The translations under genes and the position numbers were made by a program. From assembly GCF_003342675.1 (NCBI RefSeq), contig NZ_CP031148.1:2170001-2234000 (forward strand): a stretch of 64,000 nt of DNA, written 5' to 3'. Below, piece by piece: positions 12,337-39,877 of this stretch (the stretch's first letter is position 1; each line of letters begins with the position of its first letter). Source of the stretch: Haloplanus rubicundus. Lineage in GTDB: Archaea; Halobacteriota; Halobacteria; Halobacteriales; Haloferacaceae. The notes below the pieces were generated by a model. That model did no database searches, was not told the DNA's origin, and saw only the letters and a program-made list of their open reading frames with translations.

Positions 12337-13524
12337 TTAGAACTGGATCTCGAACCGCACACCACCAAGTTCGGCTGCGGTGAGACGCAGTTCCCAGTCG
12401 TGCGCAGCGACGATTCGTTCGACGATCGCGAGGCCAAGTCCCGTGCCGCCATCTTGGGTGGAGTATCCCGGTTCGAAGACATCCGCCCGTTTTTCGGGGG
12501 GGATACCGGGGCCATCGTCGGCGACATAGAACCCGTCCGCTAACGTGCCGACAGTGATCGTCACGTCACCCTCGGGAGCCGTCCCGTCGCCTCGAGCAGA
12601 GGTATCCCCGACCTCGGGTCCGTGTTCGACGCTGTCACCCGCGCTCCCGCGCCGGTTAGTAGTGGAACCATGCTCCACGCTGTCATCGGCCCCCGGCCGA
12701 CTGCCCGAGGGACTTCGTCCCTCGCTGTCCTCGGGAGTCTGCGACCGAGGGCTCGTCGAACCGTGTTCGACGCTGTCGCCGGGGTCCGCCCGGCTACTCG
12801 TGGAGCTATGCTCCACGCTGTTCCGAAATAGATTCTCGAACAATCGCCGAATGCGATCGGGGTCGGCGGTGGTCGTCGGAAGCGAATCCGGAAGGTCGAG
12901 CGTAGCGTGATCGGTTTCGACCGATTGCCACGCATCCGTCGCGGCGGTTTCGATCGAAACCTGTTGGGATGGGTCCACGACGGCATCCTCTCGCGTGAGT
13001 GTGAGGGCATCGCGGATGATCCGTTCCATCCGATCGTGTGCGTTCGAAACCGAGTCGAAGTGTTTGGCGTCGCCCGTCTCTCGTGCCGCCTGGAGATGGG
13101 CCTTGGCGACGTCGAGCGGATTACGGAGGTCGTGGCTGATCACGCTACTGACTTGATCGATGGCAGGCGACTCTCCGAGATTGGGGCACTGCGCCAAATC
13201 CGAAAACACGAGGTACCCAGTTGTCCCGTCCGAAGGGATCACCCGTACGAAGTACGGTCCGTGGTCGCGGTACCCGTCGAGATAAATACCGGCACGATCA
13301 TCCCGAACGAGGTGGCTAAGTGGCTCCTCATCAGCCGTCGTGTCGATAGTGGGAAATCGCCCGAATATCGTCGAGACTGACGTTCCGGACGAACGAGCGT
13401 CGAAACGTCGCTCGAAGGCATCGTTCGCCGCCATTACACGGGCATCACGACCCTCAACAGCGTAGGCGAGAACGGGATCTTGAAACGCGTCCAACGGAAT
13501 CGCCACACTACCCGCGTCGGTCAT
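12337..13524 (-). CDS. Histidine kinase with expanded N-box repeats
   Basis: 395 residues from ATG 13524 (MTDAGSVAIP). No membrane helix: a PAS-like sensor region (residues 1-125), then VSSVISHDLRNPLDVAKAHL with the phospho-accepting His, then a HATPase domain with VADDGPGIPPEKRADVFEPG and DGGTGLGLAIVERIV. The N-box RLFENLFRNSVEH is followed by about 80 residues in which DSVEHGST-like segments recur four times before the ATPase fold resumes with VTITVGTL. Soluble kinase; signal and partner unknown. The inserted repeats lie in the ATP-lid side of the fold and may be a flexible loop. Confidence 0.85.
   Translation of the reverse strand: MTDAGSVAIPLDAFQDPVLAYAVEGRDARVMAANDAFERRFDARSSGTSVSTIFGRFPTIDTTADEEPLSHLVRDDRAGIYLDGYRDHGPYFVRVIPSDGTTGYLVFSDLAQCPNLGESPAIDQVSSVISHDLRNPLDVAKAHLQAARETGDAKHFDSVSNAHDRMERIIRDALTLTREDAVVDPSQQVSIETAATDAWQSVETDHATLDLPDSLPTTTADPDRIRRLFENLFRNSVEHSSTSSRADPGDSVEHGSTSPRSQTPEDSEGRSPSGSRPGADDSVEHGSTTNRRGSAGDSVEHGPEVGDTSARGDGTAPEGDVTITVGTLADGFYVADDGPGIPPEKRADVFEPGYSTQDGGTGLGLAIVERIVAAHDWELRLTAAELGGVRFEIQF
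12619..12822 (-). repeat. Tandem intragenic repeats encoding VEHGST segments, each a small palindrome
   Basis: Repeat units at 12619-12637, 12662-12684, 12754-12777 and 12800-12822. The codons chosen make hairpins: GTCGAAC-cgt-GTTCGAC at 12755-12771 and GTGGAGC-tat-GCTCCAC at 12800-12816. All units stay in frame with the kinase N-box from which they appear to be copied. Confidence 0.75.
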
Positions 13525-13803
13525 CGGTATCCGACATTCTCCCGATGAATTTGCAGAGAGACCGCCGATCCCGACGGCTGGGGAGGATACCGACGACCGT
13601 AACCGATCCCAACACAACTCATGTCTCCTCGGTAGTTCGGACGCGCGTTTAGTGTTACTTCCTGATGCTGACTCAGAAACACCGTGCCCTGATTTTCATG
13701 ACTTGGCTCTCGAATAATCACGACACTCGTGTGTGAACTGCCTCGGGGCACTCCCCTTGGGTCATTTGTAGATTGATCCGACAGCGGATGCGAGCGTAGG
13801 TAT

Positions 13804-38906: not shown

Positions 38907-39013
38907 CACTGCCGATATTGTAACTCAGTCTCGAACGAGCAACGTTCGTTGTCCGTCCGTTGCACAGCCGAGGTGTGGTTATACGGCTTCGTGGAGTGGG
39001 TACGGGTGAACAC

Positions 39014-39877
39014 ATGTCCACCGACGAATTCGACCTCCGTGAACCGGAGTTAACCGCTGCCGACTTGCTCGTCCTCGACGACGACCACTTCGTACCAGAG
39101 ACGGTCGCCATCGTCACCGGCGCGGCCTCGGGTATCGGTCGTGCCACGGCGGTCGCGCTCGCGGCGAACGGCCTCACCGTCGTCGGCGCCGACATCGACG
39201 AGGACGGCCTCGACGGCACCCTCGATCTCGCCGACGACGTGGATGCCACCGGCACCGTCCACCCCATCCCGACCGACCTCACGGACGACGACGCGGTCGA
39301 GGCGATGGTCGACGCCGCAGCCGAAGCGGGCGAACTACGGTACGTCGCCAACGTGGCCGGGATGCAACACATCGCTTCCATCCCCGACTTCCCGATGGAG
39401 AAGTACGACCTCCTGCTCGATATCATGCTCCGCGCGCCGTTTCTCACTGCGAAGCTCGCGATGCCGCACATCCGGGCGACCGACGATGGGGTCGGCGCCA
39501 TCGGCAACATGTCCTCCGTCCACGGTCACTACGCGACGCAAGACAAACCCGGGTATATCACGGCGAAACACGGGCTGACCGGTCTGACACGCGCTATCGC
39601 CGCGGAGGGTGAGGGAATCTTGCGGGGCTTCTCGGTCAGCGTCGGCTACGTGTTGACGCCGCTGATGGTGAACCAGATCGAGGACACGGCCGAAGAGCGG
39701 GGTATCTCCGAGCAGGAGGTCGTCGAGGACGTGATGCTCGGCCAGGCACGGACGAAGGAGATGATGACGGCCGCCGAGGTGGCGAATCTCTTCGTCTTCG
39801 GCTTCTCCAGCCACGGCAAACACCTCAACGGCGGCGACATGCTCCACGACGGCGGATACACCACCACCTATGAGTGA
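39014..39877 (+). CDS. 3-hydroxybutyrate-dehydrogenase-like SDR oxidoreductase
   Basis: 287 residues from ATG 39014 (MSTDEFDLREPE). SDR Rossmann fold: VAIVTGAASGIGRATAVALA (TGxxxGIG), NVAG, MSSVHGHYATQDKPGYITAKHGLTGLTRAIA with catalytic Ser, Tyr and Lys. S-V-H-G-H..K-x-x-Y-x-x-A-K-H-G is the signature of D-3-hydroxybutyrate dehydrogenases. It would oxidise 3-hydroxybutyrate to acetoacetate with NAD. It overlaps the patatin gene by 8 bases, and that pairing supports a role in polyhydroxybutyrate breakdown, as described for bdhA/phaZh1 of Haloferax mediterranei. Confidence 0.82.
   Translation: MSTDEFDLREPELTAADLLVLDDDHFVPETVAIVTGAASGIGRATAVALAANGLTVVGADIDEDGLDGTLDLADDVDATGTVHPIPTDLTDDDAVEAMVDAAAEAGELRYVANVAGMQHIASIPDFPMEKYDLLLDIMLRAPFLTAKLAMPHIRATDDGVGAIGNMSSVHGHYATQDKPGYITAKHGLTGLTRAIAAEGEGILRGFSVSVGYVLTPLMVNQIEDTAEERGISEQEVVEDVMLGQARTKEMMTAAEVANLFVFGFSSHGKHLNGGDMLHDGGYTTTYE

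Follow-up and report, generated by a model that had tools for sequence, protein, structure and literature searches.

A histidine kinase gene of Haloplanus rubicundus raises the question of how a run of palindromic repeats came to lie inside its ATP-binding domain. The gene occupies positions 12337–13617, on the minus strand, of the window (the whole stretch of 64,000 nucleotides that was analysed). It encodes a protein of 426 residues from a TTG codon, or of 395 residues from an ATG at position 13524 on the same strand, with HisKA (3.5e-10; residues 154–212, positions 12982–13158) and HATPase_c (2.1e-17) domains. A preliminary description of this DNA had regarded the repeats as a kinase N-box copied in tandem, with a VEHGST segment recurring four times. 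Our analysis points instead to a haloarchaeal palindromic element, mobile and protein-coding, whose copies have piled up at this locus, a reading to which we assign a probability of roughly 0.8.

The repeats begin where that description had placed them, directly after the motif that we take to be the N-box: its Asn codon (AAC, in the context N-S|VEH) lies at 12820–12822, and the first unit starts at 12816. Four units follow on the minus strand. Unit 1 (GTGGAGCATAGCTCCAC GAGTA GCCGGGCGGACCCCGGC; VEHSSTSSRADPG; 12778–12816) matches our covariance model, R2, with an E-value of 1.6e-9, and is linked by GACAGC, a target-like hexamer (12772–12777), to unit 2 (VEHGSTSPRSQTPE; 12730–12771; E = 1.6e-6), which is of a 48-nt type with a longer second hairpin (hairpin B). 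Unit 3 (EGRSPSGSRPGAD; 12685–12723; E = 9.7e-13) has the first hairpin (hairpin A) GAGGGAC-GAA-GTCCCTC and carries EGRSPS, and unit 4 (VEHGSTTNRRGSAG; 12637–12678; E = 0.014) has a degenerate hairpin B. A last VEHG (DSVEHGPE, 12613–12630) would, judging from kinases that lack an array, be leftover context of the native N-box, and the remainder of HATPase_c with its G boxes spans 12343–12579 (residues 347–425).

VEH does recur four times downstream of the N-box Asn (VEHSST at 12816, VEHGST at 12771 and again at 12678, VEHGPE at 12630), but the exact VEHGST is found just twice. The self-complementary codons are present as described, with the palindrome GTCGAAC-cgt-GTTCGAC (GTCGAACCGTGTTCGAC) at 12755–12771 on the plus strand. 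The Ser/Arg/Gly stretches between the VEH segments, formerly read as linkers, are themselves palindromes and hold hairpin B, which covaries; this hairpin had been overlooked, together with the EGRSPS unit and the copies of the whole family in many other genes.

An AlphaFold2 model of the 395-residue kinase (15 sequences, mean pLDDT 70.3) places residues 241–317 (positions 12574–12804), nearly all with pLDDT below 50, in a disordered stretch that leads from the N-box helix to the following strand; in this model the array forms a disordered loop beyond the folded ATPase core. The array was absent from the output of Tandem Repeats Finder (score 40), presumably because its units keep their pairing more than their sequence, and a search of Rfam returned nothing credible across it.

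The unit that recurs comprises hairpin A (7-3-7, 17 nt), a 5-nt spacer close to GAGCA or GGGCA, and hairpin B (7-3-7, 17 nt), for a total of 39 nt. It is preceded by GRCAGC and followed by GACRGC; a 45-nt form consists of the 39 nt plus the GACRGC link, and a 48-nt form has a longer hairpin B. The encoded peptide is hydrophilic and 15–16 residues long. Both hairpins are maintained through compensatory changes. Across 42 units the arms of hairpin B form 263 of 294 possible Watson–Crick pairs, against 197.6 ± 5.9 when arms are shuffled among units, and those of hairpin A form 279, against 247.6 ± 5.1. Of the cells in a mixed collection of 39 units, 98.7% are paired and 98 carry double changes, compared with 27.9 after shuffling, while control structures slid along the same units pair at no more than 45%. 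The pairs 2-16, 5-13, 6-12 and 28-34 form in 71, 72, 67 and 67 of 72 distinct haloarchaeal units collected, as a test set apart from the training units, with a search pattern that did not fix several of the pairs (shuffled values 31.6, 31.2, 38.4 and 26.2), a set from which three bacterial matches and one viral match had been removed before counting and in which a few units may overlap training loci (the array at L294 matches that at L040).

At a threshold of E ≤ 0.01, R2 has 62 matches in the genome that contains the window. Of these, 22 lie in N-boxes, spread over 12 histidine kinases, and 26 in 24 other genes; a further 12 fall in DNA that is noncoding or unclear, one is an opposite-strand shadow and one is spurious. 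The idea that each unit is simply a copied N-box is not supported as the main account; the units belong to a genome-wide two-hairpin element that lies in frame in 24 non-kinase genes and also in intergenic DNA. Two of those 24 genes are weak cases (L241, an ORF of 113 codons, and L245, a low-scoring match). According to Pfam, the hosts in this genome include an alpha/beta hydrolase, a 2-oxoacid dehydrogenase E2 component, a Nudix protein, a thiamine-diphosphate enzyme (presumably MenD-like), TRM5, glutamyl-tRNA synthetase, an SDR protein, MutL, enolase, polyphosphate kinase, a DEAD_2 helicase, a DUF5787 protein, an asparaginase, a Rieske protein and a glucose/sorbosone dehydrogenase. Related genomes add a phosphoesterase (which we take to be Mre11-like), a Trp/Tyr-tRNA synthetase, and CBS and NMD3 proteins. 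Most hairpins A in the non-kinase copies do not contain VEHG.

Intergenic copies, judged noncoding by inspection of ORFs and GC3, are found at L242, L243, L244, L247, L249 and L251, and the tandem copies at L242 have units of 43 nt, which is not a multiple of three. Longer intergenic composite repeats in two genomes of one family (G071 and G013, loci L420–L428) contain a near-identical 39-nt unit at several places. Elsewhere in the window's genome, mutL (L094) and the gene immediately upstream of it (L256), which by eye we take to be mutS-like, hold one in-frame copy each (L256 at C2:557996, L094 at C2:558810), so that mismatch-repair genes are among the hosts. At L088 (C2:13057-13140) an ORF of 487 codons stops within the first of two tandem units, and the element there provides the C-terminus of the protein.

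All 48 genic matches (48 of the 62) share one strand and one reading frame, here called frame 0. In three of the genes (L071, L087 and L028) an automatic ranking by GC3 had favoured another frame, and the assignment was settled by orthologs, Pfam and the kinase motif, respectively. Translated in frame 0, the 18 non-kinase copies compared contain no stop codon, have a mean charge of −0.44 and show the lowest hydropathy, whereas the other five frames give mean charges of +1.06 to +2.5. Stop codons do not explain the bias, because they occur in just one non-zero frame (in 7 of the 18 copies) and the other four are as free of them as frame 0. We consider that the bias probably reflects selection, in the proteins of a halophile, that favours loops which are hydrophilic and slightly acidic. 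Splicing or bypass of the insert was also considered and rejected: every genic copy has an open reading frame and the insert lengths are divisible by three, so ordinary translation would be the simpler account.

Comparison with relatives shows many of these sites in an empty state. MutL lacks the insert in all 11 other genomes of the genus, and the copy studied here is longer than several of them by exactly 39 nt (VDG-DDV). In Trm5 the insert, of 45 nt, is absent from all 10 sequences that aligned (of 11 others), which read TLAGDDC where ours reads TLAADSEGRRPSGSRPKADDDC. It is likewise missing from 9 of 9 aligned SDR homologs, one of them a paralog in the same genome, from 5 of 6 enolase-like genes, from 11 of 12 GluRS genes (the twelfth has a decayed copy) and from 5 of 5 aligned PPK1 genes, whose flanks are variable. 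The Nudix insert is shared with one relative and decayed in another, while five relatives have empty sites and two have unrelated loops. The inserts measure 39 nt in MutL, 45 nt in Trm5, the enolase-like gene and Nudix, 48 nt in SDR and about 36 nt in PPK1, and they are multiples of three. A uniform target duplication that fits all the inserts compared was not found, and MutL shows an apparent absence of one. The SDR paralog that lacks the insert lies in the window itself, at 39011–39874, and the insert-bearing copy at C2:416355-417272. The sixth enolase-like ortholog (L165, in G083) keeps a single short remnant resembling hairpin A at the site of the full insert. Dispersal and empty sites together lead us to infer that the element has spread as DNA.

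Copies are present in all 12 genomes of the genus, at 10 to 62 each. Across the order, matches at E ≤ 0.001 were found in 183 of 243 genomes and in 62 of 77 genera. A sample of the phylum gave matches in 26 of about 33 genomes within the order and a single weak R2 match among about 163 others; stricter filters were applied in both searches, and their counts are lower bounds. A scan of named sequences yielded at least 80 stretches; among the matches listed, 77 are haloarchaeal (Halorubrum, Haloplanus, Haloarcula, Halosimplex, Haloferax, Natrinema and others) and three are bacterial, the latter pairing poorly in their two arms (6 and 6, 3 and 6, and 4 and 5 of 7). A viral vehicle was rejected, the viral scan having returned one contig with 5 of 7 pairs in hairpin A, a chance-like result.

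As the preliminary description had anticipated, the number of copies in the kinase varies among relatives, and their sequence varies as well. In orthologs of the window's kinase (L383–L388) the arrays differ in length and are mostly decayed, and two further genes (L390 and L394) have none; L395 carries four VEHGSTCSRPDADDS units that are identical at the protein level. Near-identical tandem units also occur in L403, and L397 shows a higher-order duplication of 90 nt. Within a genome, kinase elements are more alike than between genomes: among 36 kinase genes of the genus with clean units (of 50 examined from the top-scoring loci), the nearest relative of a kinase unit lies in the same genome with a frequency of 0.46, which falls to 0.12 under shuffling of the genome labels (0 of 1000 shuffles). 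A single mismatch in 39 sites separates unit 1 of the window's kinase from the first unit of L006, a different kinase in the same genome, and the two proteins are 55% identical. Unit 3 has a hairpin A of the GAGGGAC type found in non-kinase copies, and is therefore a separate arrival or an exchange. Kinase arrays thus grow both through tandem duplication and through repeated new insertion.

How far can these observations be accommodated by other explanations? That the palindromes are chance products of GC-rich coding DNA under strong codon bias has some appeal in that genomes of high GC content contain many short inverted repeats, but a reversed-pattern control gave 3 matches against 36 in the window's own genome and none in 99 genomes of the family. 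Only 1 of about 163 genomes outside the order has a match, and the three non-haloarchaeal pattern matches pair poorly, so we regard chance as extremely improbable. A protein repeat confined to this locus, in which slippage or unequal crossing-over between self-complementary codons enlarged the N-box segment of the kinase, would be in keeping with the identical or near-identical tandem units of L395 and L403 and with the higher-order duplication of L397. It does not account for the 26 matches in 24 non-kinase genes, for the foreign-type unit (EGRSPS) within the array or for the empty sites in MutL, Trm5 and other genes, and as a full explanation we find it very improbable. The non-kinase copies refute such expansion as the sole cause, and with it that part of the earlier proposal and any plain intragenic VNTR, the repeat not being confined to one gene; tandem duplication stands as a means by which arrays grow once the element has arrived.

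Also unlikely in our judgement is an account in which the sequences have no mobility of their own: palindromes would be remade by template-switch mutation, gene conversion would act between kinases, and the remaining genic copies would stem from rare illegitimate recombination. Template switching is expected to produce compensatory changes, and the likeness of kinase units within a genome fits conversion, but dozens of non-kinase sites share identical 39-nt boundaries, spacer and flanks. A further alternative, which is a sub-case of the mobile element rather than a competitor to it, would have a REP-like or IS200/IS605-derived (PATE-like) element moved by a Y1/TnpA transposase or a TnpB transposon, the genic copies being the surviving in-frame fraction. 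The hairpins, the apparent absence of target duplication in MutL and the intergenic copies favour it, as does a copy, conserved across several genomes of different families, that sits in the 3' region of a TnpB transposon, where this sub-lineage lies beside a weak match to the haloarchaeal sot0042 RNA. Against this, a Y1_Tnp domain is present in 9 of 12 genus genomes and absent from 3, which nevertheless have 10 to 31 copies; no clear relation of Y1_Tnp to copy number was seen across the 12. R2 gives only weak matches near Y1 genes (8 loci), and the TnpB-linked copy lies about 195–235 nt inside the end of the repeated unit rather than at its end. We hold this more specific version to be possible but doubtful. 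At the loci concerned (L436–L438, L431, L432, L161 and L307) the element is conserved within the 3' region of what we take to be a TnpB (IS1341-type) transposon, and such a transposon is a plausible vehicle between genera.

For the mobile element that we favour, the hairpins would be needed at the nucleic-acid level, either for single-strand transposition or for template-switch copying into RGC|GAC sites. They are probably required for spread, because pairing persists while sequence drifts, although template-switch mutation could keep palindromes without any function. Most insertions into genes would be lost, since the five other readings give basic peptides (one of them often with stops as well), and those in frame 0 would add a hydrophilic, slightly acidic, disordered loop of a kind tolerated in a halophile protein. 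At kinase N-boxes hairpin A spells VEHG(ST), and the hairpins of this kinase type differ from other hairpins A. At the level of sequence, an insertion after Asn-Ser thus restores the ATP-binding motif while the old VEHG stays downstream, which would make N-boxes safe sites; the element-encoded VEHG would then probably serve as the working N-box. Every insertion would leave a GACRGC, so that further copies could stack, and duplication of 45 or 48 nt could then lengthen the array. More tentatively, and with odds that we place a little below even, the element may be selfish, with a hairpin A that evolved to spell VEHG as a form of coding mimicry, so that the kinase family is both safe harbour and breeding ground, copies reach core proteins from it, and TnpB transposons may carry the element from one genus to another.

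If this reading is correct, an order-wide archaeal mobile DNA has been adding peptides within conserved enzymes, and its many insertions, empty sites and stages of decay can be compared. The absorption of in-frame insertions by proteins, survival in a single frame, and the movement of hairpin elements without an obvious transposase would all become testable. For annotation, VEHGST and SRPEADD stretches in haloarchaeal proteins would be element-derived and are not to be taken as conserved domains.

A parallel with the palindromic elements of Rickettsia (RPEs) presumably offers the closest precedent for the haloarchaeal family. Our literature search found no report of such a family in haloarchaea, which is weak evidence of absence given that subscription papers lay largely outside it, and VEHGST returned one unrelated match. 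Passages of three papers describe RPEs as short palindromic elements found in frame in many unrelated protein genes and between genes, 105–146 bp in length with long stem-loops, and mention that Wolbachia has palindromic repeats of its own (PMC10969869, PMC1950309, PMC2229807). The haloarchaeal element likewise occurs in frame in many unrelated genes, with presence and absence among orthologs and with intergenic copies. It differs from RPEs in that its unit consists of two 17-nt hairpins in 39 or 45 nt, short of the length of an RPE proper, in its tandem arrays at one enzyme motif, in its range across an archaeal order, and in pairing that is upheld by compensation; RPEs are said, in a passage of PMC6649704, to lose repeat identity over time.

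Other coding or palindromic repeats resemble it in part. Methanocaldococcus jannaschii has palindromic repeats in coding sequence (Suyama 2005, as summarised in citing passages of PMC2996958 and PMC2229807) that are likewise archaeal and fused into protein genes, but they belong to another order, and R2 gives one weak match in about 163 genomes of the phylum outside the order studied here. PARCEL repeats share tandem coding units with dyad symmetry, yet according to the relevant part of PMC2996958 they have units of 75 nt (25 amphipathic residues), are linked to membrane proteins and are reported absent from Archaea, whereas the present unit is hydrophilic, encodes 15–16 residues and lies in kinases and soluble enzymes. 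With REP/REPIN-RAYT systems and the PATE/IS605 elements of Haloquadratum, described in part of PMC3119063 as having near-terminal palindromes and no target duplication, it shares short hairpins in many copies, some intergenic; REPs, in the wording of a passage of PMC12306157, are usually extragenic by definition, while the haloarchaeal copies are mostly genic (48 of 62) and show no clear tie to a Y1 transposase. The kind of element is thus already known from Rickettsia, Wolbachia and Methanocaldococcus, and it is the size, two-hairpin build, compensatory upkeep, arrays at a motif and order-wide range that set the haloarchaeal family apart.
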